64,000 bases of DNA from NCBI RefSeq assembly GCF_018524365.1, contig NZ_JAEKFT010000024.1, forward strand, positions 1 through 64,000, written 5' to 3'. Source of the stretch: Denitromonas iodatirespirans (GTDB taxonomy: Bacteria; Pseudomonadota; Gammaproteobacteria; Burkholderiales; Rhodocyclaceae). The position numbers and the translations under genes are program-made. Within the stretch, counting starts at the first letter, position 1, and each line of letters begins with the position of its first letter. A model generated the notes under the pieces. That model was not told the origin of the DNA. It was given only the letters and a program-made list of their open reading frames with translations, and did no database searches. This document shows, in pieces, positions 4,692-61,382 of this stretch.

Positions 4692-5812
4692 GTACCTTGG
4701 CCGCACCGGCGCATGGCTTCGAGCAGGTGGCGCTGGCGCTGCAGGGCGGCGGCGCGCTCGGCGCCTATCAGGCCGGCGCCTACCAGGCGCTGGCCTCACG
4801 CGGCATCGCGCCCGACTGGGTGGCCGGGGTGTCGATCGGTGCCATCAACGCCGCGCTTATCGCCGGCAATGCGCCCGAGGCCCGCATCGCCGCGCTCGAA
4901 GGCTTCTGGCGGCGGGTGACGCGCTTCGGGCCGGGCAACTTCGCCCTGCCCGAGCCGCCGCTGCCGCCGGTGTTCAACAACCTGCTGTGGGCCGGGCGCA
5001 ACCTCAGCTTCGGCCAGCCCGGCTTCTTCGCCCCGCGCCTGCCGCCGCCCTGGCTGTGGCCGGACGACCGGCCCGAGGCCTTGAGCTACTACGACATCGC
5101 CCCGCTGCGCGACACGCTGCTCGAATTCGTCGACTTCGACCGCCTCAACGACGGCCCGGTGCGCCTGTCGGTGGGGGCGGTGGACATCCACACCGGCAAC
5201 TACGAATACTTCGACAACCGCGAGCGGCGCATCGGCCCCGAGCACATCATGGCCTCCGGCGCGCTGCCGCCGGGCTTTCCGCCGGTGGAGGTCGAAGGGC
5301 GCTTCTACTGGGACGGCGGGCTGGCCTCCAACACCCCGCTCGACTTCGTGCTGCACCACACCCCGCGCCCCGACACCCTGATCTTCCAGGTCGACCTGTG
5401 GCCGGCGCGCGGCGATCTGCCGCGCAACATCCGCGACGTGGCCGAACGCATCAAGGAGATCCAGTACTCCAGCCGCACCCGCCTCAACACCACCCACATG
5501 GTGCGCGAGATGGCGCTCAAGCGCCGCGTGCGCGAACTGCTCGCCGCCCTGCCCGGGCATGCCGAGGCCGGCACCCTGCTGGCCGAACTCGAAAAGGACT
5601 GTGCTGGCGGTGTCGCCACCATCGTGCACCTGATCTACCAGAGCCGACCCTACGAGCACGAAAGCAAGGACTACAACTTCAGCCGCCGCATGATGGAAGA
5701 GCACTGGCACAGCGGGGGGCATGATGTCGACCGGGTGCTGGCGACCCCCGGCGTGCTCGAACGGCCGGACGACCATGAAGGCATCCGGGTGTACGCCAGC
5801 GACCGCGTGTGA
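4688..5812 (+). CDS. Patatin-like phospholipase with DUF3734-type C-terminus
   Basis: 374 residues. The N-terminal patatin domain has the oxyanion [12 protein letters not shown] segment, the nucleophile elbow [10 protein letters not shown] (about 44-53) and the DGG catalytic aspartate motif in [12 protein letters not shown] (about 214-225), so the Ser-Asp dyad looks intact. The C-terminal part, with [19 protein letters not shown], matches the DUF3734 tail found in many proteobacterial patatins next to bdhA. It is probably a cytoplasmic lipid or PHB-granule-associated hydrolase. It is translationally coupled to bdhA through the ATGA overlap. The substrate cannot be read from sequence. Confidence 0.88.
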
Positions 5813-8281: not shown

Positions 8282-9106
8282 TCATCCTTGTCTGAAACGT
8301 TGCCGGGCGGCCAGGCCGAGCAGGCCGGTGAGCAGCATCAGGGCGCTGGCCGGTTCAGGCACGGCGGTGACCGGTTGGTTCAGGGTCGGGTAGTCGAGGG
8401 TGGCGACGCCGACATCCTGAACCGTAGCGTAACGCAGGTCGAGAAAGGATGGTTGATAGGCCTGCCCGTTGCAACCCGCACCGGTGAATCCGGCTTGTTG
8501 GCAGACGATCTCCGGCACGATATTCGTGCCGGCCGGGTCGACGATGGTGCTGCTGATGCCCAGCGACAGCGTCAGCGTGTCGCGACCGGAGAGGTCGTTT
8601 CCTTCGAGGTCGAAGAAGTAGCCGCTGGCCAGCGAGCCGGCCACCAATTGCGCCTGGACGCCGACCTGACGCTGGATCGGGTCGATCTGGCCGCCGACCA
8701 CCGTGAAGCGGGCGATGCGGGTGCCGTTGTCGGCGCCGTAGAAGCCCTGGGTGCCGCCGAAATCGAGGGCGCTGTCGGCATACAGGTCGAGGGTGCCGCC
8801 GGTAAAGCCGCTGCCGAGCAGGCCGACGGCGCCGGTCACGTTGTAGCTGACGGTCAACTCATGGCTGCCGGTGTTGCCGACAACCTGGTAGGCGCCATGT
8901 TCCTGGAAGGTGATGCCCAACACGGCCCAGGACAGTTCCTGTTCGACGAAGCCGGCGCCGGCCACGTTGAGCGAGGAGACGAAGCTGGCGCCGGACCAGC
9001 CGGTGCCGGCGGTATTGAGATACCAGCCGCTGGCGGCGCGGGTCGGCAGCGAGAGGGTGGCGAGGGTTGCCAGCACGGCCAGCGGGATCAGTCGGGAAGG
9101 GCGCAT
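8282..9106 (-). CDS. PEP-CTERM sorting domain protein of unknown function
   Basis: 274 residues with an N-terminal signal peptide (cleavage near TRA-AS, about 24) and a C-terminal tripartite PEP-CTERM signal: AVPEPASA, a hydrophobic stretch, and a short basic tail ending AARQRFRQG. Such proteins are processed by an exosortase (EpsH/Xrt type) and exported in exopolysaccharide-producing Gram-negatives. The central region is rich in Gly, Thr and Val and looks like a beta-sandwich; I recognise no enzymatic motif. The exosortase itself is not in this window. Confidence 0.85.
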   Translation of the reverse strand: MRPSRLIPLAVLATLATLSLPTRAASGWYLNTAGTGWSGASFVSSLNVAGAGFVEQELSWAVLGITFQEHGAYQVVGNTGSHELTVSYNVTGAVGLLGSGFTGGTLDLYADSALDFGGTQGFYGADNGTRIARFTVVGGQIDPIQRQVGVQAQLVAGSLASGYFFDLEGNDLSGRDTLTLSLGISSTIVDPAGTNIVPEIVCQQAGFTGAGCNGQAYQPSFLDLRYATVQDVGVATLDYPTLNQPVTAVPEPASALMLLTGLLGLAARQRFRQG

Positions 9107-14120: not shown

Positions 14121-14516
14121 TCAGCCCGCGCCGTGGGCCGGGCCGGGTGTGCCGAGAGGCTGGGCGATGCGCCAGGTGACACCGCTCGGATCGGTGAGGC
14201 GGAACTCGCGCATGCCCCAGGGGCGGTCTTGCGGGCGGGTCAGAGTGACGCCGTAGATGTCGGCCAGCCGGGCGTCGTGGGCGCGCTGCCACCAGGCGTC
14301 GACATCGGCCACCAGCAGGTGCAGGCTGAAATTCTCGGCGACGATGGCCAGGTAGTCGTTTTCCAGCAGGAAAGCGGTGCGGCCCGCTTCGAAACAGGCC
14401 AGGTCGGGCGAGGCCCAGGTACAGGTAAAGCCCAGTGCCTCGTAGAAGCGCCGCGAGCGCTCGAAGTCGCGGGCGGGCACGAAGGCTTTGAGATCGAGGG
14501 TGTCGAGCGTGGGCAT
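14121..14516 (-). CDS. VOC family (glyoxalase/bleomycin-resistance fold) protein
   Basis: 131 residues. It contains two beta-alpha-beta-beta-beta modules typical of the vicinal oxygen chelate fold, with FERSRRFYEALGF in the first and WGMREFRLTDPSGVTWRI in the second. The substrate is unknown. The start was set at the ATG giving MPTLDTLDLKAF; the longer upstream frame has no family similarity. The stop lies two bases from the stop of the convergent MocR gene. Confidence 0.82.
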   Translation of the reverse strand: MPTLDTLDLKAFVPARDFERSRRFYEALGFTCTWASPDLACFEAGRTAFLLENDYLAIVAENFSLHLLVADVDAWWQRAHDARLADIYGVTLTRPQDRPWGMREFRLTDPSGVTWRIAQPLGTPGPAHGAG

Positions 14517-14706
14517 GGCTGGGCTCGCATGTCGCGCAATCACGACAGAGTGCCTCGTCGGCGGCCGCGCGGGCAAGCCTGGCGGGCCTTCGCGGATTGT
14601 TGCACTTCGTAACCGAGCCAGGCAGCGAGCGGCGCGACATGGCAAGATGGAGCCGTCCCGCCGTGCCGCCATGCCCGGCAAGACCCCTCAGAACAGGAGA
14701 AAAACA

Positions 14707-15279
14707 ATGCGCACGACGCTCATCATCGCAGCTTTGGCCGGGGTGCTGGCCCTGCCCGGCTGCACCACCACCGAAACCCAGAACAAGACCATCGGCGCGG
14801 TCTCGGGCGCCGTGCTCGGCGGCGTCGTCGGCAACCAGGTCGGCGGCCGTCGCAGCACCGTGGTCGGCGCTGCGCTGGGGGGTGCCTTCGGCTATCTGAT
14901 CGGCTCCCAGGTGAAGGTCACCGAACAGCCGGACGGCTCGGTCAAGCTCAACATTCCGGGCTCGGTGCTGTTCGACACCAACAGCGCCCGCATCAACCCC
15001 TCGTTTGCCCAGACACTCGACCAGATCGCCGGTACGCTCAACGAGCATCCCAACGCCATGGTCAATGTGGTGGGGCACACCGACAGCACCGGCTCGGCCG
15101 ACTACAACCAGCGCTTGTCGCTCGACCGCGCCACCAGCGTCACCAACTACCTGCAGGGCCGCGGTGTGGCACCGGGGCGGCTGACGCCGACCGGGCAGGG
15201 CGAGTACATGCCGATCGCCGACAACGCCACGGCCGACGGGCGGGCGCAGAACCGCCGGGTGGAAATGTACGTGCGCTGA
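14707..15279 (+). CDS. OmpA-like outer-membrane lipoprotein with glycine-zipper segment (YiaD-like)
   Basis: 190 residues. A lipoprotein signal peptide ends in ALPGC (lipobox, Cys about 19). It is followed by a Gly-rich zipper (AVSGAVLGGVVGNQVGG, then AALGGAFGYLIGS) and a C-terminal OmpA domain with GHTDSTGSADYNQRLSLDRA, the peptidoglycan-binding motif region, and QNRRVEMYV. It is probably anchored in the outer membrane and holds peptidoglycan. A ribosome binding site (AGGAGA) lies upstream. An OmpA-family protein is also part of some proteobacterial sortase systems, but this gene is about 2.2 kb from that cluster. Confidence 0.88.
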   Translation: MRTTLIIAALAGVLALPGCTTTETQNKTIGAVSGAVLGGVVGNQVGGRRSTVVGAALGGAFGYLIGSQVKVTEQPDGSVKLNIPGSVLFDTNSARINPSFAQTLDQIAGTLNEHPNAMVNVVGHTDSTGSADYNQRLSLDRATSVTNYLQGRGVAPGRLTPTGQGEYMPIADNATADGRAQNRRVEMYVR

Positions 15280-16530: not shown

Positions 16531-17376
16531 CTAACGAACGCGGTGGCGCCGTGTCCACTGCGGCGCCGGGGCGGCGGTGCGCTCGGGCTTGCCGTGGGTC
16601 TTGCGGCTGGACCGCCGGGCCCGACGCTCATGGCGCCGGGCCGACAGGCGGCTCAGGGCGAGCATCACGCGGAAGGCGACGAACAGCAGGACGAGGGTGA
16701 CCAGGACCGGATGGGTCAGTGTGTCCCACAACAGGAACAGGAACTTGCCCAGCAGATTGCGGCCCGACTCGCTGGCCCAGGCCGCATCGCTGGGGCCGTG
16801 GCCGTTGCCGGCCGCCTGGGCCGTCCAGCCCGACGTCTCGAGGCGGGCATCGGCGCGCGCCGCGATCAGGCGCGCTGTGCTGGTGTCTTCGACACCGAGC
16901 GATTCGAGCAGCTCGCGGCTGATCGCGTTGATCTTTTCGTTCAGGCCACCGTCGAGCAGCGCGTTGAAGCGGTCGCGCATGCCGCGCATGCGTTGCATCA
17001 GGTCTTCGTCGTCGGCAAACCAGGCTTTGCGGTCGGGGTTGTCGAATACCAGCTCGTCGAGATTCTCGATGCCGTCGAGGAAGGGGGCGGGCATTTCCTC
17101 CTTGGGCGGCGTGACGCGGCGGCGGTCGGCCGGGTCGATTAGCGCCTCGCTGGGGGGGACGCCGGCGGCACCCAGTTCGACCGGTGCGTCGAGCAGGCGC
17201 TCGGGCGCATCCCCGGTGACGAAGGCGTCGCCTCGCAGCTGGGGGGTGGCCGCGGGGACGGGCTGAACCGCGGCCGACTCGAAGCCGGTCAGCGGCAGGG
17301 CATGGCCGGGGCCGAGCATGCAAAAGCACCAGAGGCCAAGGCCGATCCGGGCTGTCGGGCAGAAAAGGGCGCGCAT
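16531..17376 (-). CDS. Secreted or membrane-anchored protein of unknown function
   Basis: 281 residues from the ATG at 17374-17376; an upstream in-frame ATG exists but would place non-hydrophobic sequence before the signal peptide. It has an N-terminal signal peptide (about 1-26, ending GHA), a Pro- and acid-rich middle, a helical region around 115-175, one C-terminal transmembrane helix (about 212-238) and a very basic cytoplasmic tail of about 40 residues. I recognise no family. Its layout suggests a periplasmic domain anchored by the C-terminal helix. Confidence 0.6.
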   Translation of the reverse strand: MRALFCPTARIGLGLWCFCMLGPGHALPLTGFESAAVQPVPAATPQLRGDAFVTGDAPERLLDAPVELGAAGVPPSEALIDPADRRRVTPPKEEMPAPFLDGIENLDELVFDNPDRKAWFADDEDLMQRMRGMRDRFNALLDGGLNEKINAISRELLESLGVEDTSTARLIAARADARLETSGWTAQAAGNGHGPSDAAWASESGRNLLGKFLFLLWDTLTHPVLVTLVLLFVAFRVMLALSRLSARRHERRARRSSRKTHGKPERTAAPAPQWTRRHRVR

Positions 17377-17467
17377 GCGAGTGCCTAAGCAAATCCCGCA
17401 CCATAGCAACAATGCTTTGTTTTTAATTGAAATTTTGATGCATGGATGAGTGGCTGGGGAGGCGGTG

Positions 17468-19150
17468 TCAAATTTGCTGACGTATTTCGCCCGGGTCGTG
17501 ACCGGCGCGGCCCAGGGGCAGGGTGGCGGCAAAACATACGCCCTCGCCGGCCGGCAGGTTGTGCGCGCCGAGCGTGCCGCCGTGAAAGCCGGCGATCAGC
17601 CGGGCGACATAGAGCCCGAGGCCCAGGTGGGGCTCGTCCGGATGCTCGCTGCGGCGCCCGCTCACCAGCGACTCGAAGAGCTTGCCCTCGAGCGCGGCAG
17701 GCAGCGTCGGGCCGCGGTTGACGACACTCAGTTCGGCATGCTGCCCGGCCACCGTCAGGCGGATGCGGATGGCGCTGCCGCGCTCGGCGAAATCGCAGGC
17801 GTTGTCGACCAGCTTGTCGAGCATCTGGGCCGCCAGGTCGGGGGCGCCGCGCACCCACACCGGGCCGTCGGGCAGCTCGGTGTCGAAGGCTTGCTCGGGG
17901 TGCGCCAGGCGGTAGCCCTGAACGCATTCGGCAACCACGGCGCGCAGGTCGAAATGCTCCGGATCGGTGGTGCCCAGCGCCTGCTCCATGCGCGTGGCTT
18001 CGCTCATGCGGGCGAGGATGCGGGTCAGGCGGCGCAGCCCGGCATCGGCCCGTTCGAGATAGGTGTTGGCCGGCGGCGGGAGGGCTTCGAGCTGCAGGTT
18101 TTCGAGCGAGGAGCGCACCACCGCGACGGGCGTGCGCAACTCGTGCGACAGCCGGCTGGCCATCGATTCGAGGTAGTGGTGATGCTGGGCCAGGCGCGCC
18201 AGCAGGGTCGAGAAGCTGCGCGACAGGTCGCCGACCTCGTCGCCGGCGGTGGAGGCGGCGGTCAGCCCAGTGATGCGGCCGCGCGCATCGATGGCGCTCT
18301 CGGCCTCGTCGCGCAGGCGGCGGATGCGCCAGGACAGGCGCGAGGCGAAGCCAAGCACCACCAGCGCGGCAATCGCCAGCCCGGCAAAGGTCAGCAGGGC
18401 CAGCCGTTCGACCGCCGCATCGCGCACTGACTGGATCGCCAGCGTGCTCTCTTCCACCACCACCGCGCCTTGCACCTTGTCGGCCACCCACACCGGGTGG
18501 GCGGCGGCGACCACCAGCACCTCGCTGTTGCCGACCGGGCGCAGCCACGAGGTGGTGGCGCCGAACAGCGTGCCGGAGATCGCCTGTCCGCTCGGGGGCG
18601 ACGCGTCGGTGAGTTGGGCGACCACATCCTCCTGAGGCTGCCCGACCTGGCCGAGCAGGGCGCGCCACAGGCGCATGAGCGGGCCGGCGCCGTTGCGATC
18701 ATGCTTCGGCGGGACCAGCGAGCCGCTGTGGGCAATCACTTCGAGATCGCGGTCGACCACCCAGATGCGGGCGGTGCTGCGCTCCAGTCCGCGCAGGATG
18801 GCGCCGACCTCGGCGGCACCATCGACCGTGGGGGCCGGCGGCGGCGCGGGTAGGGAGTCGGCCGGCTGTTGCGGCATGCTGGCAATGGCCAGTTCGAGCA
18901 CCTCCTCGCCGGGCGCCAGCGAATCGCTCAGGCTGACCGCACTGCTGCCCGGCATCCGCCCGAACAGCTGTGGCCGCTCGTGCAGGGCGGTGGCCACGGC
19001 GCGGGCGGTGGCGATCAGGCCCTGGCGCTGGCCGTCGAGCAGGAAGCGCTCCATCTCCTGCACATACTGGTAGCCCACCCAGGGCAGGGCGAGCAGGACC
19101 ACGGCCACCAGGGCGAGCTTGCTGCGCAGGCCGATGCGAAAAGGCGTCAC
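17468..19150 (-). CDS. Sensor histidine kinase of the dedicated sortase system
   Basis: 560 residues. TM1 (about 12-27) is followed by a periplasmic sensor region (about 30-250), TM2 (about 251-269), a HAMP-like linker, the HisKA domain with SHELRTP (phospho-acceptor His336), and an HATPase_c domain with a DNACDFA N-box and LGLGLYVARLIAGFHGG G-box. The architecture and gene neighbourhood match the histidine kinase family found with proteobacterial dedicated sortase systems. It presumably controls the sortase target genes through the response regulator at 20483-21172. The two are separated by a gene on the opposite strand, which is unusual for a cognate pair. Confidence 0.82.
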   Translation of the reverse strand: MTPFRIGLRSKLALVAVVLLALPWVGYQYVQEMERFLLDGQRQGLIATARAVATALHERPQLFGRMPGSSAVSLSDSLAPGEEVLELAIASMPQQPADSLPAPPPAPTVDGAAEVGAILRGLERSTARIWVVDRDLEVIAHSGSLVPPKHDRNGAGPLMRLWRALLGQVGQPQEDVVAQLTDASPPSGQAISGTLFGATTSWLRPVGNSEVLVVAAAHPVWVADKVQGAVVVEESTLAIQSVRDAAVERLALLTFAGLAIAALVVLGFASRLSWRIRRLRDEAESAIDARGRITGLTAASTAGDEVGDLSRSFSTLLARLAQHHHYLESMASRLSHELRTPVAVVRSSLENLQLEALPPPANTYLERADAGLRRLTRILARMSEATRMEQALGTTDPEHFDLRAVVAECVQGYRLAHPEQAFDTELPDGPVWVRGAPDLAAQMLDKLVDNACDFAERGSAIRIRLTVAGQHAELSVVNRGPTLPAALEGKLFESLVSGRRSEHPDEPHLGLGLYVARLIAGFHGGTLGAHNLPAGEGVCFAATLPLGRAGHDPGEIRQQI

Positions 19151-19348
19151 GGGGGAATCCGGTCGGTGGGCGGTGGCAAAGGGGCGCCGGGGTGTGCTGC
19201 GGCGCCCGGCTGACTATAGCACCGCCCAAATCGGCGCGCGGCGCCAAGCCACGTATCGAAACGTAATGAATTCCTGAAGGATTTCGCCGGCGCGCATGGT
19301 ACAAAGTGCATTGCGCTGCAACGTGCCGAAATTCAGGAGCTCTCCGGG

Positions 19349-20467
19349 ATGTCCGCCCTCTATTCGATTGTTTTTTCCGGCGATCTGCGCGACGGCTTCG
19401 CGCCCGAGCAGGTCAAAGCGCGCTTCGCGGCGCGTTTCGCCCTCAAGCCCGCCCAGCTGGCCCAGATGTTTTCCGGCCGGGAGATCACCCTCAAGAAAGG
19501 CTTGTCCGCCGACCAGGCCCGGCGCTATGTCGCCGAGCTCGAAGCGATGGGCCTGCAAGCCCATGCCCGCGCGGTCGGCGGGGCCGAGCCGGTAGCGCCG
19601 CCCAAGCCCGCGGCCACCGAGGCGGGCTATCGCATCGTCTTTGCCGGCAAGGTGTTGCCGGGCTTCTCCCGCGAGGCCGTCATGCGGGCGTCGGCCAGTC
19701 GCCTGCATTTCGATGCGCGCCAGCAGGCCATGCTGTTTTCCGGCAAGCGCGTCACCATGAAACGCGGCCTGAGCGAGGAAAAGGCGCGCAGCTACCTGAC
19801 CACGCTGCGGCACATGGGCATGGACGTCGCGACCGATCCGGCCCTGCCGCGCCCGGCGCCCGTGGAGACATCGGCGCATGACGAGGCCACCGAGGCGAGT
19901 CTGATGGAGACGCAGTTTACGCCCGCCGCGCCCTATAACTTCGAGAACACTTTCCACAGCAGCTCGTCGCTCGACATGCTGCGCTCGGACGACGATGATC
20001 TGCCGCCCCTCCCCGACCCGGCCAACCCAGCGCTGGGCCATGCGCGATCGGCGATGATGCAGACCATCATCAACCCGGAGGCGATGCGCGACTATGAGGC
20101 GGCGCTGGCCGACGACCCCGAGCTGTCGGCGCTGCGCGAAGCCCATGACGCGCCGGCGCCAGCGCCGCGGCGCGTGCCGTCCACGCCGGTCGATTTCGAT
20201 TTCACCGCACCGCCGGTGTCCCGGCCGGTGCCACCGCCGACCGCCACGGAGCCGCCGAAACCGGCGCCCGAGCCGCAGCCAGTGCCGCCGTCGGAGCCCC
20301 CGGCTCCGCAGGCGCCGGCGGCCGTCCTGGCGCCGCTCGACGATCGGCTTGCCACCCAGACGCCGCCTGAACCGCCCGCGCGCACCAGCCGCACCGGCAC
20401 CTTGATCGCCGTGCTGGCGGTGGCGGTGCTGGTGGCGCTGGCCTTGTTCTACCTGGGCGGCGGCTGA
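19349..20467 (+). CDS. Tail-anchored protein with two tandem copies of a small domain, unknown function
   Basis: 372 residues with no signal peptide. Residues about 4-72 and 93-161 are two copies of the same module: each begins YxIVFxG, has a central MFSGxxxTxKxGLS-like core and ends with AR-Y-x3-L-x2-MG. An acidic linker and a Pro/Ala-rich region (about 265-345) follow, then one C-terminal transmembrane helix (about 350-368). The repeats resemble the N-terminal module seen in some DUF805-type proteins. It is divergent from the sortase-system kinase and lies between it and the response regulator, so a role in that system is possible but unproven. Confidence 0.65.
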   Translation: MSALYSIVFSGDLRDGFAPEQVKARFAARFALKPAQLAQMFSGREITLKKGLSADQARRYVAELEAMGLQAHARAVGGAEPVAPPKPAATEAGYRIVFAGKVLPGFSREAVMRASASRLHFDARQQAMLFSGKRVTMKRGLSEEKARSYLTTLRHMGMDVATDPALPRPAPVETSAHDEATEASLMETQFTPAAPYNFENTFHSSSSLDMLRSDDDDLPPLPDPANPALGHARSAMMQTIINPEAMRDYEAALADDPELSALREAHDAPAPAPRRVPSTPVDFDFTAPPVSRPVPPPTATEPPKPAPEPQPVPPSEPPAPQAPAAVLAPLDDRLATQTPPEPPARTSRTGTLIAVLAVAVLVALALFYLGGG

Positions 20468-20482
20468 CGGCCCGGCGATGCG

Positions 20483-21172
20483 CTATGGGCGCCAGCGATA
20501 GCCGGCGCCGTAGACACTCTCGATGCGGTCGAAGCCGTTATCCACGGCGGCGAATTTCTTGCGGATGCGCTTGATGTGTGAGGTGATGGTGCCGTCGTCC
20601 ACCACCAGGTGGGCGTCGGCCATCAGCTGATCGCGGCTCTTCACATGGCCGGGGTGGCGCGCCAGGGTGTGCACCATCCAGAACTCGGTCAGCGTCAGCG
20701 GCACCGGCTGGCCGTGCCAGTGCGCCGTGAGCCGGCTGATGTCCAGCCGCAGCCCGCCGCGGTCCAGCTGTTCGTTCTGCGCCGGGGCGTCGGCCAGCAC
20801 GTCGACACGGCGAAACAGCGCCGCCACGCGGGCCAGTAGATGCGGCAGGCTGATGTCCTTGGTCAGGTAGTCGTCGGCGCCGAGGCGCAGGCCCGAGACC
20901 ACGTCGAAGTCGCTGTCGCGCGCGGTGAGGAAGATGATCGGCAGCCGCTGCGACAGGGCGCGCAACTCGGCACACAGGGTGAAGCCGCCTTCGGGCTCGT
21001 CGCCCAGGCCGATATCGATGATCGCCAGCTCCGGCAGGCGCTCGCGAAAGGCGGCCAGCGCGCTGGGCCGGTCGGCATAGGCCGACACCTCGTAGCCCTG
21101 GCGGGCGAAGGCGTCGGTGTAGTTGGCGCGGATGGCGGCTTCGTCTTCGACAATGGCAATTCGGCGTCCCAT
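20483..21172 (-). CDS. OmpR-type response regulator of the dedicated sortase system
   Basis: 229 residues. The receiver domain has the acidic pair at 10-11 (VEDE), the phospho-acceptor Asp53 in IIDIGLGD and the conserved Lys in LTKDI. The C-terminal winged-helix has TLTEFWMVHTLARHPGHV and the VYGAGYRW terminal hairpin. It is the expected partner of the histidine kinase at 17468-19150. It is divergent from the sortase target gene, and the intergenic region carries a tandem repeat that could be its binding site. Confidence 0.85.
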   Translation of the reverse strand: MGRRIAIVEDEAAIRANYTDAFARQGYEVSAYADRPSALAAFRERLPELAIIDIGLGDEPEGGFTLCAELRALSQRLPIIFLTARDSDFDVVSGLRLGADDYLTKDISLPHLLARVAALFRRVDVLADAPAQNEQLDRGGLRLDISRLTAHWHGQPVPLTLTEFWMVHTLARHPGHVKSRDQLMADAHLVVDDGTITSHIKRIRKKFAAVDNGFDRIESVYGAGYRWRP

Positions 21173-21244
21173 GGGGCGCTACTCTAGCACCGCGCGGGCG
21201 GCGTCGGCGCGTGCCATTTTTTTGCCACATTTGATCCCTGCTTT

Positions 21245-21267
21245 GCCCGAATCGGTGCCCGAATCGG
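21245..21267. promoter_or_regulatory. Tandem 11-base repeat between response regulator and sortase-target genes
   Basis: GCCCGAATCGG occurs twice, at 21245-21255 and 21257-21267, with a period of 12 bases, close to one helical turn. OmpR-type regulators usually bind direct repeats with roughly helical spacing. It lies in the divergent intergenic region, 58 bases upstream of the target gene start. Function is inferred from position only. Confidence 0.4.
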
Positions 21268-21324
21268 CCGGTTTTCCCCGTTTCAATGGTGGTGTCCAAA
21301 AACGCCATTCGAATGGAGAACCCC

Positions 21325-23463
21325 ATGACCCCCGCACCGCTTGGCTTTCGAGATCGTGCCCGCGAAGTCGCCGAACTGCTCGCTCGTCTGTTGCTGATGT
21401 TCGTTACCGGCCTCGGCGTCAGCCTGGCGCTCGGCGCGCTGGTGTTGATGCTGGCAGCGCCGGCGCAGGCGGCCGAATCCGGCGACGGTGGCGTGCAGCA
21501 GGGCACCTTGCTGTTTCGTGGCGCCGACGGCGGCGATCCGGCCGCTGCGCCCTTGTTGCACACCGATGTCACGCTGCGGGTTAGCGGCCCGATCGTGCGC
21601 GCCCGGGTGGTGCAGCGCTTTCGCAACCCGGCCGACGACTGGCGCGAGGGCACCTATGTGTTCCCGCTGCCGGAGAACGCGGCGGTCGATCGCATGCGCA
21701 TCCAGGTGGCGGACCGGGTGATCGAGGGCCAGATCCAGGAGCGCGCGCAGGCCAAGGCCACGTATGAGAAGGCCAAGGCCGAAGGCAAGGCAAGCGCGCT
21801 GGTGTCGCAGGAGCGGCCCAATGTGTTCACCACCCGCGTCGCCAACATCGGGCCGAAGGACGAGATCCGGGTCGAGATCGAATACCAGCACACCCTCGAC
21901 TACGCGGTCGCCGACGGCGTGGGGCGCTACAGCCTGCGCTTCCCGATGGTGGTGGCGCCGCGCTACATCCCCGGCCAGGTGGTGGGCGACGAGGAGAGCG
22001 GTGCCATTCTCGGTACCGACATGGTCCCCGATGCGGCCGCCATCCTACCGCCGATGCTGCTGCCCGACGAGGCCGGCCCGATCGTCAATCCGGTCAGCCT
22101 CAATGTCTATCTGGATGCCGGCGTGCCGATCGCTGCGGTCGACAGCCCCTTCCACCGGGTGCGCATCGATACCCTCAAGCCCTCGGTGCGACGCATCCGC
22201 CTGAGCGAGGGGCGCACGCCGGCCAATCGCGATTTCGTCCTCAACTGGACGCTGGCCGCCGGCGCCGCGCCGCATGCCACGCTCTTCGTCGAGCCGGGCA
22301 AGGACCGCGACCACGCCCTGCTGATGCTGGTGCCGCCGGCGCCCAGCGCGGTGGGCAAGCGCCTGCCGCGCGAGGTGGTGTTCATCGTCGATACCTCGGG
22401 CTCGATGGAAGGCGCCTCGATCGTCCAGGCGCGCGAGGCGCTGGCCATGGCGCTGGGCCGACTGGGGGCCGAGGACAGCTTCAACGTCATCGAATTCAAT
22501 TCCAACGCCAAGGCGCTGTTCGACACGGCCCGGCCGGCCAGCGGCGAGCACGTCGCGCAGGCGGTGCGCTGGGTGCAGGCGCTGCGCGCGAATGGCGGCA
22601 CCGAAATGGCCGGCGCGCTGGACTTGGCGCTCGACGGCCGGCGCAACCCCGACCGGGTGCGCCAGGTGATCTTCCTCACCGACGGCGCGGTCGGCAACGA
22701 GGCCCAGCTGTTCGGCCTGATCCAGCAACGCCTGGGCGACTCGCGGTTGTTTACCGTGGGCATCGGTTCGGCGCCCAACAGCCACTTCATGCGCAAGGCG
22801 GCGCAGGCCGGGCGCGGCAGCTTCACCTACATCGGCAAGGTCGAGGAGGTGCGCGCGCGCATGGCCGAACTGTTCGCCAAGCTGGAGTCGCCGGTGATCA
22901 AAGGATTGACCGTTACCTGGCCGAGCGGCGCGCGTGCCGACGCCTCGCCCGATCCGCTGCCCGACCTGTATCTGGGCGAGCCGGTAGTGGTGGCCGCGGC
23001 GATCGACCGCACCGTGGGCGGCGAGGTGCGCCTGAGCGGCGATTCGGGCGCCATCCGCTGGAGCAGCTCGCTGTCGCTCGATGACGCCAACCCGGGCGAG
23101 GGCATCGGCGTGCTGTGGGCGCGGCAGAAGATCGACCACTGGATGGACACCCTCGCCGACGGCGCCGACGAGGCCGCCGTGCGCGAGAAAGTGCTGGCGC
23201 TGGCGCTCGAATTCCAGCTGGTGAGCCAATTCACCAGCTTCGTCGCGGTCGACACCACGCCCGCCCGCTCGGCCGACGCGCGCCTCAAGTCTGGTGCCGT
23301 GCCCAGTCACTTCCCGGCCGGCTGGTCGCCGTCCGGCGTGTATGGCGAATTGCCCCGGGGCGCCACCGATACGCGCTGGCATGTGTTGATGGGCCTGATC
23401 GCGCTGGCCGCATTTTTCCTCACCCGTACGCCGCGCGTACGCCAACTGACGATGAAGGGGTAA
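21325..23463 (+). CDS. Sortase target protein with VIT and VWA domains
   Basis: 712 residues from the ATG preceded by GGAGA; earlier in-frame ATGs at 21286 and 21313 exist. A long signal sequence (about 1-50) is followed by a VIT domain (about 60-190, with YVFPLPENAAV) and a VWA domain (about 345-520) with an intact MIDAS (DTSGSMEG, a threonine in NGGTEMAG, DGAV). The C-terminus has LPRGATD (from residue 676), a hydrophobic helix and a basic tail. This is the layout of a sortase substrate with a non-canonical sorting signal. Matching proteins are known as marine proteobacterial sortase targets. The protein is presumably an adhesin-like surface protein. Confidence 0.85.
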   Translation: MTPAPLGFRDRAREVAELLARLLLMFVTGLGVSLALGALVLMLAAPAQAAESGDGGVQQGTLLFRGADGGDPAAAPLLHTDVTLRVSGPIVRARVVQRFRNPADDWREGTYVFPLPENAAVDRMRIQVADRVIEGQIQERAQAKATYEKAKAEGKASALVSQERPNVFTTRVANIGPKDEIRVEIEYQHTLDYAVADGVGRYSLRFPMVVAPRYIPGQVVGDEESGAILGTDMVPDAAAILPPMLLPDEAGPIVNPVSLNVYLDAGVPIAAVDSPFHRVRIDTLKPSVRRIRLSEGRTPANRDFVLNWTLAAGAAPHATLFVEPGKDRDHALLMLVPPAPSAVGKRLPREVVFIVDTSGSMEGASIVQAREALAMALGRLGAEDSFNVIEFNSNAKALFDTARPASGEHVAQAVRWVQALRANGGTEMAGALDLALDGRRNPDRVRQVIFLTDGAVGNEAQLFGLIQQRLGDSRLFTVGIGSAPNSHFMRKAAQAGRGSFTYIGKVEEVRARMAELFAKLESPVIKGLTVTWPSGARADASPDPLPDLYLGEPVVVAAAIDRTVGGEVRLSGDSGAIRWSSSLSLDDANPGEGIGVLWARQKIDHWMDTLADGADEAAVREKVLALALEFQLVSQFTSFVAVDTTPARSADARLKSGAVPSHFPAGWSPSGVYGELPRGATDTRWHVLMGLIALAAFFLTRTPRVRQLTMKG

Positions 23464-23466
23464 GCC

Positions 23467-24156
23467 ATGAGCACCGTGTGCCACAACTGCCGTCATCCTG
23501 AATTCCTGGGCGTCGAGTGCGCCTGGCCGGCGCCCGGTTGCAGCGCCACCGCCGCGCCGCGCCGTCGGCCTGTTGTGTCCTGGCTGGTCAGGACGGTGGC
23601 GGCCGCCAGCCTGCTGGTGGCGTTGCTGCAGTTCGGCCAGGCCGGCTACATCCAGGCCAAGGCCTGGCTGGCCCAGGCGCTGATCGCCCAGGCCTGGCAG
23701 AAGACGCTGGCCGGGCAGACGCAGGTCAAACCCTGGCCGTGGGCCGACACCTGGCCGGTGGCGCGGCTGAGGGTGCCGTCGCGCGGGGTCGAGCTGTATG
23801 TACTGGCCGGCAGCGAGGGGCGCAGCCTGGCCTTCGGGCCGGGGCATGTGTTCGGCACCGCCCAACCCGGCGCGGCCGGCAACAGCGTGATCGGCGGCCA
23901 TCGCGACACCCACTTCGCCTTCCTGCAATGGGTGCAGGCGGGCGAGACGGTCGAGGTGGAGATGCCCACCGGCGCGGTGGCGGTGTACCGCATCAGCGAC
24001 CAGCGGGTGGTCGACAAGTCCGACACCGGGGTGATGGCCTCGCCGCCGGACAGCCACCGGCTGACGCTGGTGACCTGCTACCCCTTCGACGCGCTGCGCG
24101 CGGGCGGGCCGCTGCGCTACGTGGTGACGGCCGAGGAGGCCGGCACGCCGCTGTAG
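23467..24156 (+). CDS. Sortase (proteobacterial dedicated type) with Cys-rich N-terminus
   Basis: 229 residues. The catalytic triad is visible: His145 in IGGHRDTHF, Cys204 in LVTCYPF and Arg217 in GPLRYVV. A transmembrane helix at about 38-56 anchors the enzyme. Before it, the cytoplasmic segment has four cysteines at 5, 8, 18 and 25 (CxxC-x9-C-x6-C), like a small zinc site; I do not know this as a usual sortase feature. The gene starts four bases after the target gene stop, so the two form an operon. It should cleave and transfer the target at its LPRGA-like signal. Confidence 0.85.
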   Translation: MSTVCHNCRHPEFLGVECAWPAPGCSATAAPRRRPVVSWLVRTVAAASLLVALLQFGQAGYIQAKAWLAQALIAQAWQKTLAGQTQVKPWPWADTWPVARLRVPSRGVELYVLAGSEGRSLAFGPGHVFGTAQPGAAGNSVIGGHRDTHFAFLQWVQAGETVEVEMPTGAVAVYRISDQRVVDKSDTGVMASPPDSHRLTLVTCYPFDALRAGGPLRYVVTAEEAGTPL

Positions 24157-24182: not shown

Positions 24183-24213
24183 CGAAGGCGCCCGCGGGCG
24201 CCTTCGTTTTTTT
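24183..24213. terminator. Rho-independent terminator after the sortase gene
   Basis: A GC-rich stem (GAAGGCGCCCG paired with CGGGCGCCTTC) is followed by a run of seven T on the plus strand. It ends the target-sortase operon. The minus strand also has a short A/T stretch, so it could serve the convergent gene at 24224-24661 as well. Confidence 0.75.
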
Positions 24214-54870: not shown

Positions 54871-57678
54871 TCAGCCTCGATGCAGCAGTTGCAAGAAGTG
54901 TTCCGGCGCCATCGCGGGGTGATACAGATAACCTTGGCCGATATCGCAACCATACTCGCGTAGCCGGTCGGCCTGCACCTCGTTCTCGACGCCCTCGGCG
55001 ATTACCTGGAGGTTCAGGTTGTGGCCGAGCTGAACGATGGTGCGCACCAGGACGTCGCTGTCGGGGTCGCACCCCAGGTCCATGACGAAGGCCCGGTCGA
55101 TCTTCAGATGGTTGACCGGGAAGCGCTTGAGGTAGGCCAGGCTCGAATAGCCGGTGCCGAAATCGTCCACCGACAGCCCCACGCCGAGCCCGGCCAGCCC
55201 GGCCAGGGTCTCGCGGGCGGTGATGTTGTCTTCCATCAGCACCGACTCGGTGATTTCGAGGATCAGGTGCGCCGGCGGTAGGCCGGTGTCGCTGAGGACG
55301 GTGCGCACCAGCTCGGTCAGCCCGGGGCGGCGAAACTGCACCGAGGAGAGATTGACCGCGACCGGCACCGGCCGGCCGCCGGCCTCGGCCCAGCGCACGG
55401 CATGCTGGCAGGCGCTGCGCAGCGCCAGTTCGCCAAGGCGGTGGACATGGCCGAACTTCTCGACCACCGGGATGAAGGTGTCGGGCGGGATCATCCGGCC
55501 GTCGGTCTCGATCCAGCGCGCCAAGGCCTCGGCGCCGACCAGGGCGCCGCTGCTCAGGTCGAACTGCGGCTGGAACCACATGCGGATGCGCCCGTCGCGC
55601 AGGGCGGCGCCGAGCTGACTCTCGAGGGCGAACTGGTCTTCGAGCTCGCGGTTCATGTCGGGCGAGAAAAAGCGGTAGTCGCCGCGGCCGTCGTTCTTGA
55701 CCTGGTACAGCGCCACGTCGGCCTTTTGCAGCAGCCGGTCGGCGCTGTCGCCGTCTTCGGGGAACAAGGCCACGCCCATCGACACCGAAATGCGCAGGTC
55801 GCGCCCGTCGAGGTTGACCGGCTCGTCCAGCTCGCGTTGCAGCTTCTCGCACACCTGGGCGGCATCCCCCGGGGCATGGAGATCGGGCAGGAGGATCACG
55901 AACTCGTCGCCGCCCTGCCGGCAGATGGTGTCCGTTTCGCGCAGGTGCGGCATGAGCCGGCCGGCCACGGCGATCAGCAGCAGGTCGCCGACCGGATGGC
56001 CGAGGGTGTCGTTGATCGTCTTGAAATGGTCGAGGTCGAGAAAGATCACCGCCACCCGGGTGCCCGCACGCCGCGCACGCCCGATCGCGTTCTCGAGACG
56101 GTCGGTCAGCAGGGTGCGGTTGGGCAGGCCGGTGAGGCTGTCATGGGTGGCCAGGTGGCGGATATGGTCTTGTGCCGTGTGCTGGTCGGTGATGTCCTGC
56201 ATGCTGGCGATGAAGCGCAGCGCCTGGCCGCGGGCATCGCGGCGCACCACCTGACCGCGTTCGCGTACCCAGATGACGTGGCCGTCGTGGCGGAGCATGC
56301 GATGCTCGCTCTCGAAGTGGTCGAGTTCGCCGCCCAGATGTTGCTGCAGGCGCTGGGCCACCTCGGCGCGGTCGCCGGGATGAATCCGTTCGTCGCGCAC
56401 CCGCGGGTCGTTCGGCACCTGGTCGAGGCCGAGCATGGCCAGCCAGCCGTCGGCATAGAAGGCTTCGCCGCTGCGCATGTCCAGATCCCACACGCCCTGG
56501 CCGGCGCTCTCCAGCGCCAGATGCCAGCGCCGCTCCAGTTCCGACACCGTGTCGCGCTGCTTTCGGTACAGCGACAGCGCCCACAGCATGCCCAGCAAGG
56601 CGAGGGCGAGCACCGCCAGGATGAGAATGCCGCCGAGCACCTGGGGGCGGTGGCGCTCGTACAGCGACGGCGTGTAGTCGATCAGCTCGGCATGGGCAGG
56701 CAGCGTGCTGCGCGCGACCTGCCAGCGCTCCAGCTGCGGCCAGTTGTAGCGCGGGCGGGTGGGCAGCATCTGGACCGCGGGGAGCGGGGCGTCGCCTGCC
56801 AGCAGGCGTCGGGCCGTGGTGGCGACCGCCATGCCGGTGTGCGGGCCGGCCGAGACGTTGCCGCCGACGCAATCGCTGCGCAACAGCATGATCTCGTAGA
56901 TGCAGAACATCGGCGCGTTGGCCTCGCGGCCGATGCGGGCGGCCACATCGACCGGCATCACCGGCCGGCCCGCGCCGTCGCGCGATACCCGCAGGTACAG
57001 CAGCAGCGTGTTGTCGGGCGCGTGGCGCACGTCCGACAGCAGGGCGTCGAGTGCGCCGACCTCGATGAAGCGCACGTCGATATGCTGGGCCAGGGGGACC
57101 AGCTGTGTGCGTGCCGCCGCCATGACGGCGGCGTCGTCCCGCGCGCTGCCGCCGATCACCCACAGAGCCTGACTGTCGGGCAGGATCGCCAGCGCATCCC
57201 GGGCGGTTTCCGCGATGGCCCGTGCATTGCGCAGGGTGATCCGGCCGTTCCCGTCGGTCGGGATCGGCTGATCCACGAAAATGCCTTCGACCTGCACCAC
57301 CGGCCCGCGGCCAAGCCAGCGGCCGACCTCCTGCTGGAAGCGGACGCTCGTCGCGCCCGACAGGATGAGCAGGTCGAAGGGGGGGCTGTCGCCGTACTTG
57401 AGCTTCAGCGTCTGGGCGATGAGCCGCGCGCGGGCCGGGTCATAGCCGGGCTGCATGTCGAGATAGACGGTGTCGAGGGCGATGCGCGGTGCTTTGTCGT
57501 GGCCGTCGAAACCTTCGCGCAGGCCGCGTTCGAGGAGGATCTCGTAGGGGGGGTCGCGCTGCCCGAAGAAGATGCCGAGCACCCGCGGCGTGGCGCTGTC
57601 GGCGTCAAGCGGCGCTGCCTGCGCAGGGTATGCGGGCAGGGCGAGGCAAGCCAGCAGGAACAGGCAGCAACGAATCAT
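54871..57678 (-). CDS. Sensor diguanylate cyclase/phosphodiesterase (PAS-GGDEF-EAL)
   Basis: 935 residues. A signal peptide (1-21), a periplasmic region of about 320 residues of ABC-substrate-binding-like type, one membrane helix (about 347-369), a PAS domain with PAC (about 380-505), an intact GGDEF motif (589-593) in RQGGDEFVIL, and an EAL domain starting at 717 with GAEALARW, DDFGTGYSSL and QVIAEGVE. Both catalytic sites look complete, so the protein may make and degrade cyclic di-GMP. The periplasmic part may sense a ligand. It seems to be a single-gene unit. Confidence 0.88.
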   Translation of the reverse strand: MIRCCLFLLACLALPAYPAQAAPLDADSATPRVLGIFFGQRDPPYEILLERGLREGFDGHDKAPRIALDTVYLDMQPGYDPARARLIAQTLKLKYGDSPPFDLLILSGATSVRFQQEVGRWLGRGPVVQVEGIFVDQPIPTDGNGRITLRNARAIAETARDALAILPDSQALWVIGGSARDDAAVMAAARTQLVPLAQHIDVRFIEVGALDALLSDVRHAPDNTLLLYLRVSRDGAGRPVMPVDVAARIGREANAPMFCIYEIMLLRSDCVGGNVSAGPHTGMAVATTARRLLAGDAPLPAVQMLPTRPRYNWPQLERWQVARSTLPAHAELIDYTPSLYERHRPQVLGGILILAVLALALLGMLWALSLYRKQRDTVSELERRWHLALESAGQGVWDLDMRSGEAFYADGWLAMLGLDQVPNDPRVRDERIHPGDRAEVAQRLQQHLGGELDHFESEHRMLRHDGHVIWVRERGQVVRRDARGQALRFIASMQDITDQHTAQDHIRHLATHDSLTGLPNRTLLTDRLENAIGRARRAGTRVAVIFLDLDHFKTINDTLGHPVGDLLLIAVAGRLMPHLRETDTICRQGGDEFVILLPDLHAPGDAAQVCEKLQRELDEPVNLDGRDLRISVSMGVALFPEDGDSADRLLQKADVALYQVKNDGRGDYRFFSPDMNRELEDQFALESQLGAALRDGRIRMWFQPQFDLSSGALVGAEALARWIETDGRMIPPDTFIPVVEKFGHVHRLGELALRSACQHAVRWAEAGGRPVPVAVNLSSVQFRRPGLTELVRTVLSDTGLPPAHLILEITESVLMEDNITARETLAGLAGLGVGLSVDDFGTGYSSLAYLKRFPVNHLKIDRAFVMDLGCDPDSDVLVRTIVQLGHNLNLQVIAEGVENEVQADRLREYGCDIGQGYLYHPAMAPEHFLQLLHRG

Positions 57679-58970: not shown

Positions 58971-59084
58971 CGTTAGTAAAACCTGATGCGAGCACCATGT
59001 GCGACAAATTATCGCAGCGTCCATCGCGGCGACGATTTCCGGGTTGGTACCCGTATCCGAACTTTCGTTCAGGGAGAGAACAAG

Positions 59085-61382
59085 ATGAAGACCCGTATCA
59101 AGCAGGCGGTCGGACTGGCGCTTGCGGCTGGTTTCGGTCTGGCAGCGAGCACCTCGGCATTTTCCGCCGAATCGCTGCAGGACGTCATGAAACGCCGCGG
59201 GCTGTCCCAGCAAGACCTTTTGGCGGCCGCCAAAACCTATGTGCCGACCGGCAAGCGCGATGAGTTCCTCGCCTTCAGCTCGGGCGGTCAGTCGGGCCAG
59301 ATCATTGTGTATGGCATCCCGTCCATGCGCATCCTCAAGTACATCGCGGTGTTCACGCCGGAACCGTGGCAGGGCTACGGCTTCGACGAGAACTCGAAAG
59401 CCGTGCTGCGCCAGGGCAACATCGACGGCAAGGAAATCAACTGGGGCGATACGCACCACCCGGCCATTTCCGAGACGCAGGGCCAGTACGACGGCCAGTT
59501 CCTGTTCATCAACGACAAGGCCAACCCGCGCCTGGCGGTGATCGACCTGCGTGACTTCGAGACCAAGCAGATCGTGGTCAACCCGATCTACAAGTCCGAG
59601 CACGGCGGCGCCTTCGTCACGCCCAACACCGAGTACGTGATCGAAGCGGCGCAGTATGCCGCACCGCTGGCCAACCAGAAATTCGAGCCGCTGACCTCGT
59701 TCAACAGCAAGTACCGCGGTGGCGTGACGTACTGGAAGTTCGACCGTCACGAAGGTCGCCTGGTGCCGAACGAGTCCTTCTCCTTCGAACTGCCGCCGTA
59801 TTCGCAGGATCTGTCGGACGCGGGTAAAGGCCCGTCGGAAGGCTGGGCCTTCACCAACTCCTTCTGCTCCGAGCGTTATGTGGGCGGTATCGAGAAGGGT
59901 CGCCCGCCGTACGAAGCCGGTTGCTCCGCCAAGGACACCGACTACCTGCACGTGATGAACTGGAAGAAGGCCGCCGAGCTGGTCAAGGCCGGCAAAGCCA
60001 CCAAGATCAACGGCCACAACGTGCTGCCGATCGACGTGGCGGTCAAGGAAGGTGTGCTCTTCCTGGTGCCCGAGCCCAAGAGCCCGCACGGTGTCGACGT
60101 GACGCCTGACGGCAAGTTCATGGTCGTCTCCGGCAAGCTCGACACGCACGTGTCGGTGTACAGCTTCGAGAAGATCCAGGCTGCCATCAAGGCCGGCAAG
60201 TTCGAATCGAAGGATCCGTACGGCATCCCCGTGATCGCCATGAAGGATGCGCTGCACACCCAAGTCGAACTCGGCCTCGGCCCCCTGCACACCCAGTACG
60301 ACGCCAAGAGCTGCGTGGCCTACACCTCGCTGTACGTGGATTCGCAGGTCGCCAAGTGGAACTACTGCGAAGGCAAGGTGCTCGACAAGCTGAGCGTGCA
60401 CTACAACATCGGTCACCTGATGACCATGGAAGGCGACACCATGGCCCCGCAGGGCAAGTACCTGGTGGCGCTCAACAAGCTGTCCATCGACCGCTTCAAC
60501 CCGGTCGGCCCGCTGCATCCGCAGAACCACCAGCTCATCGACATCAGCAACGACAAGATGCAGCTGCTCTACGACATGCCGCTGCCGCTGGGTGAGCCGC
60601 ACTATGTGGTGGGGATCAAGGCCGACAAGCTCAAGCCCGCCGTGCGCTACAAGGTCGGCACCGACAGCCGCACCGACAAGCCGCATCCGGGCGCCGTCAA
60701 GGCCGGTCAGGAAAAGACGGTCCGCAACGGCAACAAGGTCGAAGTGTTCGGTACGCTGATCCGTTCGCACATCACGCCGGAAACCATCGAAGTCGAGAAG
60801 GGCGATGAAGTCACCATCCACCTGACCAACCTCGAGCGTGCCCAGGACGAGACCCACGGCTTCACCGTCTCGACCTTCAACGTGCATGCGTCGGTCGAGC
60901 CGGGCAAGACGGTCACCGTCAAGTTCACCGCCGACAAGGAAGGCGTGTATCCGTACTACTGCACCGAGTTCTGCTCGGCGCTGCACCTCGAAATGCAAGG
61001 CTACCTGCTGGTCAAGCCGAAGGGCTGGAAGCCGGAGAAGGACGCCTCGCTGTCGGGCGCGGGCTATACGGAAGAGGACTACAAGAAGACGCTGAAGAAA
61101 GTGGCTGACACCCAGGCCGTCATCGACCAGGTCGTGGGCTACATCACCAGCGTCAACTACACCGACTTCCCGGATGTGGTGGCCATGATGGAAGACGCGG
61201 TCGACCAGCTCAACCGCACCAAGGAAGCCAAGGCCAAGCACGAAGAAGCCGCGCGCGGCGCCGACTGGGACCAGGCCAACCTCTGGGCCGAGCAGGTGTG
61301 GCAGTACCAGGTGAAAGCCGCCGACCTCGGTCTGCGTGCCAAGACCTACCTTGAGCAGCATGGCGCCAAGAAGGTCGAGTGA
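59085..61382 (+). CDS. nosZ: Nitrous-oxide reductase, clade II (Sec-type)
   Basis: 765 residues. The signal peptide is Sec-like without a twin arginine (MKTRIKQAVGLALAAGFG), indicating the clade II group. The CuZ ligand segments are recognisable: DTHHPAISE, SEHGGAF, SPHGVDVTPDG, LGPLHTQYD and SVHYNIGHLM. The CuA motif uses Cys626, Cys630, His634 and Met637 in CTEFCSALHLEM. About 128 residues follow Met637, a helical tail much longer than in clade I enzymes. It reduces N2O to N2 in the periplasm. An AGGGAGAG ribosome binding site precedes the ATG. Confidence 0.95.
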   Translation: MKTRIKQAVGLALAAGFGLAASTSAFSAESLQDVMKRRGLSQQDLLAAAKTYVPTGKRDEFLAFSSGGQSGQIIVYGIPSMRILKYIAVFTPEPWQGYGFDENSKAVLRQGNIDGKEINWGDTHHPAISETQGQYDGQFLFINDKANPRLAVIDLRDFETKQIVVNPIYKSEHGGAFVTPNTEYVIEAAQYAAPLANQKFEPLTSFNSKYRGGVTYWKFDRHEGRLVPNESFSFELPPYSQDLSDAGKGPSEGWAFTNSFCSERYVGGIEKGRPPYEAGCSAKDTDYLHVMNWKKAAELVKAGKATKINGHNVLPIDVAVKEGVLFLVPEPKSPHGVDVTPDGKFMVVSGKLDTHVSVYSFEKIQAAIKAGKFESKDPYGIPVIAMKDALHTQVELGLGPLHTQYDAKSCVAYTSLYVDSQVAKWNYCEGKVLDKLSVHYNIGHLMTMEGDTMAPQGKYLVALNKLSIDRFNPVGPLHPQNHQLIDISNDKMQLLYDMPLPLGEPHYVVGIKADKLKPAVRYKVGTDSRTDKPHPGAVKAGQEKTVRNGNKVEVFGTLIRSHITPETIEVEKGDEVTIHLTNLERAQDETHGFTVSTFNVHASVEPGKTVTVKFTADKEGVYPYYCTEFCSALHLEMQGYLLVKPKGWKPEKDASLSGAGYTEEDYKKTLKKVADTQAVIDQVVGYITSVNYTDFPDVVAMMEDAVDQLNRTKEAKAKHEEAARGADWDQANLWAEQVWQYQVKAADLGLRAKTYLEQHGAKKVE

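Follow-up and report, generated by a model that had tools for sequence, protein, structure and literature searches.

A dedicated sortase system of Denitromonas with an inserted gene between kinase and regulator and a candidate operator before the target

The proteobacterial dedicated sortase system, defined by the families TIGR03784, TIGR03785, TIGR03787 and TIGR03788, combines a sortase, a sensor kinase, a response regulator and a target protein. A dedicated Gram-negative sortase adjoining a VIT/VWA protein appears in the accessible part of PMC3237569, and PMC10581121, as far as its text is available, has already reported class GN sortases from both Denitromonas and Azoarcus; the occurrence of such an enzyme in Denitromonas is not new. 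The available text of the latter paper says that the role of class GN sortases in Gram-negative cells is unknown; it shares with the present work the genus and the enzyme class, and in its accessible sections gene order, an inserted gene and a regulatory site are not described. An Ensifer gene annotated as a marine proteobacterial sortase target stands in an expression table in the excerpt of PMC6637203, and PMC3415414, in the passages available, merely names the model. In the open-access literature, which leaves subscription journals mostly outside, none of the available passages reports work on how the system functions or is regulated, this one Ensifer line excepted. Here we describe a locus at positions 17468-24156 of a 64,000-nucleotide stretch of Denitromonas iodatirespirans (contig NZ_JAEKFT010000024.1; "the window" means this whole stretch). 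It resembles the described system in its four components, divergent layout, catalytic residues and tripartite target signal, and differs in that the kinase is split from the regulator by another gene, the kinase sensor is about 150 amino acids shorter, LPxGA replaces LPxTA, and the one nearby OmpA-like open reading frame (ORF) that was scored misses the PdsO cut-off. We think it probable that one insertion in the ancestor of the genus cut the kinase from an autoregulated operon, and that a single operator controls both divergent units of the system.

The locus comprises five ORFs in the order kinase (minus strand), inserted gene (plus), regulator (minus), target (plus) and sortase (plus). Three of the products passed the curated NCBIfam cut-offs: the OmpR-type response regulator (20483-21172, minus strand; TIGR03787, 378.0 bits against 335.7), the target, with a signal peptide, VIT and VWA domains and a C-terminal sorting signal (21325-23463, plus strand; TIGR03788, 765.1 against 551.65), and, after a gap of 3 bp, the class GN sortase with its Sortase domain (23467-24156, plus strand; TIGR03784, 232.5 against 158.25). 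A strong intrinsic-terminator-like hairpin (24183-24206, plus strand) with a 10-bp stem and a T run lies 3' of the target-sortase unit. The sensor histidine kinase (17468-19150, minus strand; 560 amino acids, HisKA and HATPase_c domains) scored 529.6 bits with TIGR03785, below the cut-off of 612.2 and far above the next family (137), its best stretch covering positions 258-703 of the 703 in the profile; we place it in TIGR03785 by best match and context, the cut-off not being reached. With these assignments, every component of the dedicated (class GN) sortase system is present at the locus. The identical five-gene order in 10 of 10 Denitromonas genomes argues that the layout is not due to chance. 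The earlier note on this DNA had named such a system, with a regulator divergent from the target-sortase pair and a plus-strand gene between kinase and regulator; family scores and layout bear this out, and the coordinates and strands that it gave are correct.

The low kinase score is probably explained by a periplasmic sensor about 150 residues shorter than usual, as in the Rhodocyclaceae relatives. A simple transmembrane (TM) scan predicted two helices with a 227-residue periplasmic loop between them. The loop measured 218-229 residues in the 9 readable kinases out of 10 from Denitromonas, 206-229 in the 6 readable of 12 from other Rhodocyclaceae, and 332-389 in 13 of 16 readable kinases of the class-level sample; the remaining three (0, 15 and 23) probably reflect helices misplaced by the simple scan.

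To place the inserted gene (19349-20467, plus strand), we compared layouts across the family and beyond. Sortase was found in 18 of 150 sampled Rhodocyclaceae genomes, four of them Denitromonas, and in all 10 Denitromonas genomes; among the 14 sortase-bearing family genomes outside the genus, 12 loci were complete, L054 and L056 being contig fragments without kinase and regulator. The earlier note had asked whether the inserted gene is present in all relatives. Within Denitromonas it is (10/10, with the first part out of frame in one genome, G060); outside the genus it is in none of the 12 complete Rhodocyclaceae loci, where kinase and regulator adjoin by their ORF ends. The class-level sample consisted of 40 loci, drawn from the 50 further genomes with a target match above the cut-off. 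Target, kinase and regulator were all found in 22 of these, and in each of the 22 kinase and regulator again adjoin by ORF ends with no insert; the other 18 had no such pair in the stretch examined at the thresholds used. The matched stretches of the two genes lie 654-1236 bp apart in class loci because the kinase N-terminus is unmatched. Frameshifts affect the target genes of G060 and G155 as well as the inserted gene of G060, through either assembly error or decay.

In a FastTree tree of regulator, target and sortase (44 tips, midpoint root), Denitromonas formed a clade within a Rhodocyclaceae clade, both with support 1.0. The simplest reading of this tree would be a single insertion on the Denitromonas stem, in the ancestor of the genus. 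The tree also bears on whether Denitromonas recently acquired the locus from a marine gammaproteobacterium, as family names and habitat might suggest. The nested position of the genus speaks against such an origin, as do the shortness of the kinase sensor and the target's LPxGA motif, which are common to Rhodocyclaceae and unlike most of the class sample; we regard it as very improbable, and at this sampling the tree rejects recent transfer from gammaproteobacteria. The split layout, present throughout the genus, is a variation on a known system, and its regulatory consequence can be tested.

Between regulator and target lies a candidate operator of the regulator, ATCAAATGTGGCAAAAAAATGGCA (21212-21235, minus strand), a TGGCA-N6-TGGCA direct repeat of period 11. 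By eye, it immediately precedes the expected -35 element of a regulator promoter. A first matrix, trained on many of the sites that it then scored, placed the best site of the locus 62-329 bp before the target match, in constant orientation, in 22 of 22 complete Rhodocyclaceae loci (20.2-43.3 bits). We then used a held-out matrix built from eight sites of other Rhodocyclaceae and none of Denitromonas, run on the window and 18 loci, five of them class loci picked by their first-matrix score. With this matrix the site at 21212-21235 scored 37.9 bits. The second-highest site of the 64-kb window had 14.6, the top score among 60 shuffles was 16.6, and each of the 10 Denitromonas loci contained the operator (31.0-37.9 bits). 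Genome-wide, the pattern AATRTGGCRNNNNNNKGGCA had one perfect match, this same site, and six matches with one mismatch; a reversed control had five matches. Three loci are informative on which gene the site accompanies. In L055 the operator (position 13402) stays with the target although the regulator is 4.5 kb away, in L050 a copy also precedes the target with the regulator further off, and L044, whose regulator is likewise more distant, keeps a copy before the target and has two in all (12400 and 13128), one at each end. The CreB tag is likewise a direct repeat of period 11, with the unit TTCAC where the candidate operator has TGGCA, and the CreB and CreC models are the second-best matches of the regulator and the kinase.

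The gap between kinase and inserted gene gave a different result. Across 10 loci the best first-matrix scores in this gap ranged from -12.6 to 10.8, against at least 25.2 for training sites, and the gap of this genome contains no operator-like site; the inserted gene is thus without an operator here. Some 60 bp upstream of the kinase we noted by eye a 12-base -10-like block, GGTGCTATAGTC (19212-19223, minus strand); also by eye, 8 of the 10 Denitromonas genomes show a similar block before the kinase, and other genera show one before the regulator. Since this block precedes it, the kinase probably has its own start site and lies outside the autoregulated loop. The GGTGCTATAGTC block occurs once in the genome, a uniqueness that is uninformative on promoter function. 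In sister genera the kinase and regulator genes adjoin, which makes a shared transcript probable. The regulator itself is preceded by the -10-like block GGTGCTAGAGTA (21180-21191, minus strand), seen by eye as a conserved block of the alignment. Before the inserted gene stands an extended -10-like element, TGGTACAAAGT (19297-19307, plus strand), with a core TGGTA conserved in a 10-row alignment; it only resembles the consensus and was not among the promoters reported by the sigma-70 scan.

Taken together, we propose that the kinase would sense an envelope signal and phosphorylate the regulator, which, being of OmpR/CreB type by homology, would bind the one operator and control both divergent units. 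As expected of their families, the target would be exported and retained through the C-terminal helix and the basic tail that follows, and the sortase would cut it at LPxGA and join it to an acceptor. The comparison of layouts shows the split: a gene coding for a tail-anchored protein of predicted fold would have entered the regulator-kinase operon a single time, in the Denitromonas ancestor. The kinase would now probably be expressed from its own start site outside the autoregulated unit, with regulator and output remaining under the operator and the level of the kinase set separately. The inserted protein itself has probably retained a separate function on the membrane's inner face.

Several observations, in addition to the kinase score below its cut-off, weigh against this proposal. 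The regulator is linked to the candidate operator by position only. Most class loci lack a clear operator: with the first matrix the top-scoring site was at 20 bits or above in 6 of 40 loci, four of these sites lie before target or regulator, and two of those four were in the training set. As the operator is unrecognisable in most class loci, we claim it for Rhodocyclaceae only. The kinase-insert gap of L060 contains, at 5313-5336 (minus strand), a site of 18.3 bits with the held-out matrix; because this exceeds the best shuffle, absence of the operator from that gap is not clean. By eye, two of the 10 Denitromonas genomes lack the -10-like block before the kinase, and in this one the block was not among the promoters that the sigma-70 scan reported. 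Finally, no strong terminator was found in the 15-bp gap between inserted gene and regulator, and a regulator transcript might therefore run antisense through the inserted gene to the kinase.

The inserted protein (372 amino acids) is predicted to consist of two domains of L7/L12-ClpS fold (residues 1-76 and 93-165), a disordered linker and a C-terminal TM helix (352-370). An AlphaFold2 model built with nine orthologues gave tandem beta-alpha-alpha-beta-alpha-beta domains with a predicted local distance difference test score (pLDDT) of mostly 80-92; for the whole model, pLDDT was 68.2 and the predicted template modelling score 0.28. In fold searches the model matched the L7/L12 C-terminal domain (1ctf, Z 8.5, 2.5 Å over 68 residues; 6gb2, Z 8.6) and ClpS (9b1p, Z 7.8, 3.0 Å over 74 residues), the next match being penicillin-binding protein 3 (Z 5.9 and below); according to the search tool, top Z values of 7 to 8 often arise without kinship. 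Foldseek matches were weak (best E 0.014). Both domains are predicted to carry the fold of the Ribosomal L7/L12 C-terminal domain (PF00542), and they differ from L7/L12 and ClpS in their tandem arrangement, long linker, C-terminal TM helix and weak sequence match. The sequence model of this domain (PF00542, Ribosomal_L12) matched one of nine full-length orthologues at E up to 0.5 (best 0.16) and, when 15 single domains were scored with E up to 1, two of them (best 1.9e-4), weakly in both cases. A profile search with the domain reached L7/L12 chains from E 0.042; polyubiquitins ranked higher through summed weak stretches, and we took these for chance, as each is a sum over at most nine stretches at about 4 bits apiece. 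No NCBIfam family matched the inserted protein. FaeA (PF04703) was the sole Pfam match over its cut-off for the full protein (23.9 bits against a gathering score of 20.7) and recurred at E up to 0.5 in seven of nine orthologues; we set it aside, as the match spans 25 of 62 positions and conflicts with the predicted fold.

Relatives of the inserted protein occur in at least 33 of the 150 sampled family genomes, a lower bound, since at most 13 candidates were scored per genome. Outside Denitromonas there are 29 such genomes: 24 lack a sortase of this kind, and the other five have it on another contig or at least 90 kb away. By eye, readable relatives carry linkers, zinc ribbons, TM helices or other tails. 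The two neighbourhoods that we examined hold unrelated genes and have nothing in common with the sortase locus. Within Denitromonas, the ratio of nonsynonymous to synonymous substitution rates (dN/dS) was 0.11-0.31 for the inserted gene (six pairs) and 0.03-0.23 for the regulator (five pairs), with the second domain of the inserted protein the most constrained in three of four pairs split by region. Judged by these ratios, the inserted gene is under purifying selection and is kept less tightly than the regulator.

These data bear on what the inserted gene does at this locus. It could be a mere passenger, with the kinase still made by read-through from the regulator promoter, antisense to the insert, and nothing rewired. 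Kinase and regulator do still share one strand, and the terminator-poor gap between inserted gene and regulator would let such a transcript pass; the -10-like block before the kinase in most of the genus, and the more than 1 kb of RNA that read-through would produce antisense to a selected gene, make this unlikely in our judgement. The opposite possibility is a dedicated accessory, a membrane-tethered adaptor binding kinase or regulator via its two L7/L12-ClpS-fold domains. Its retention in place throughout the genus, the purifying selection with its focus on the second domain, and the prediction that the domains are cytoplasmic and at the membrane would all fit. Yet its relatives outside Denitromonas live in genomes without such a sortase or with a distant one, the neighbourhoods examined show unrelated genes, the gene has no operator in this genome, and it is frameshifted in G060; such a role also seems doubtful to us.

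A bolder combination is that Denitromonas recruited the insert as a third, membrane-tethered regulator of the sortase two-component system and that the kinase left the autoregulatory loop as well. We think this quite unlikely; we found no sortase described with a signalling adaptor made of two L7/L12-ClpS-fold domains. We retain as probable the proposal of a single ancestral insertion that removed the kinase from operator control.

We also characterized the target and its sorting signal. The start of the target is most likely 21325, which is preceded by GGAGA, and not the ORF start at 21286; in two orthologues (L040 and L057) a stop codon lies in frame upstream of the point equivalent to 21325. 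The C-terminus, read from the translation, holds the sorting motif LPRGA(TD) at 23350-23364 (plus strand), then a hydrophobic stretch taken as a TM helix and a basic tail of R and K, so that the tripartite signal is present; the simple TM scan named the N-terminal helix only. Rhodocyclaceae targets follow LP[QRKM]G[AG], with Gly at the fourth motif position in 21 of 21 readable sequences. In class targets, a script found Thr at this position in 32 of 40 rows, Gly in four and no motif in four; inspection by eye showed Thr in the four rows left unscored and a spurious Gly in one row (L099). Dropped from the motif count were L057 (frameshifts, the script's Gly being in the wrong frame), L042 (frameshift) and L099 (tail unreadable); L054 was kept. 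LPxGA is listed among alternative anchor motifs in the available parts of PMC8286594 and PMC9210967, and we dropped the idea that its Gly is a new sortase signal because it is already on these two lists.

The sortase carries the motifs GGHRDTH and TLVTC...R, and in the alignment the catalytic His, Cys and Arg were each present in 62 of 63 sequences. Two residues before the catalytic His, Gly was found in 23 of 23 Rhodocyclaceae sortases against 2 of 40 in the class sample. Covariation of this Gly with the Gly of the motif is not claimed: L104, L107 and L108 combine motif Gly with sortase Ser or Ala, and L080 has sortase Gly with motif Thr. The genome held one sortase match and three target matches, one of them over the cut-off. 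A general LPXTG model gave only weak matches in the genome, did not list this target and fired in all 14 controls. The only nearby OmpA-like ORF that was scored, 14488-15279, reached 88.9 bits against the PdsO (TIGR03789) cut-off of 152.2 and was rejected as PdsO, YiaD being the better fit.

The earlier note had singled out the presence of the system alongside denitrification genes as worth attention. Among 20 of the window's other large ORFs, we did find the Sec-dependent nitrous-oxide reductase NosZ (58986-61382, plus strand; 926.2 bits against a cut-off of 625); at about 35 kb from the sortase locus, it stands alongside only loosely. That the occurrence is odd was not supported, as sortase is present in 18 of 150 family genomes and throughout the sampled Denitromonas and has already been published. 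A link of the sortase locus to denitrification is unsupported beyond the shared genome.

Other genes of the window include one downstream of the kinase (16531-17404, minus strand) for a small exported or membrane protein of no family; in five of nine other Denitromonas loci the same place holds a match of merely 36-42% identity. The protein encoded at 8282-9106 (minus strand) ends in VPEPASALMLLTGLLGLAARQRFRQG, which by eye we take to resemble a PEP-CTERM tail, and from this tail the genome may hold a second C-terminal sorting system. A large GGDEF/EAL protein of cyclic-di-GMP type is encoded at 54871-57678 (minus strand).

For the biology of these bacteria, the single candidate operator would offer a direct handle on when the sortase system is on. 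The natural split of kinase from regulator provides a built-in comparison, between sister genera, of coupled and uncoupled sensor genes. The inserted protein, for its part, is a member of an uncharacterised group that reaches well beyond Denitromonas in the family.

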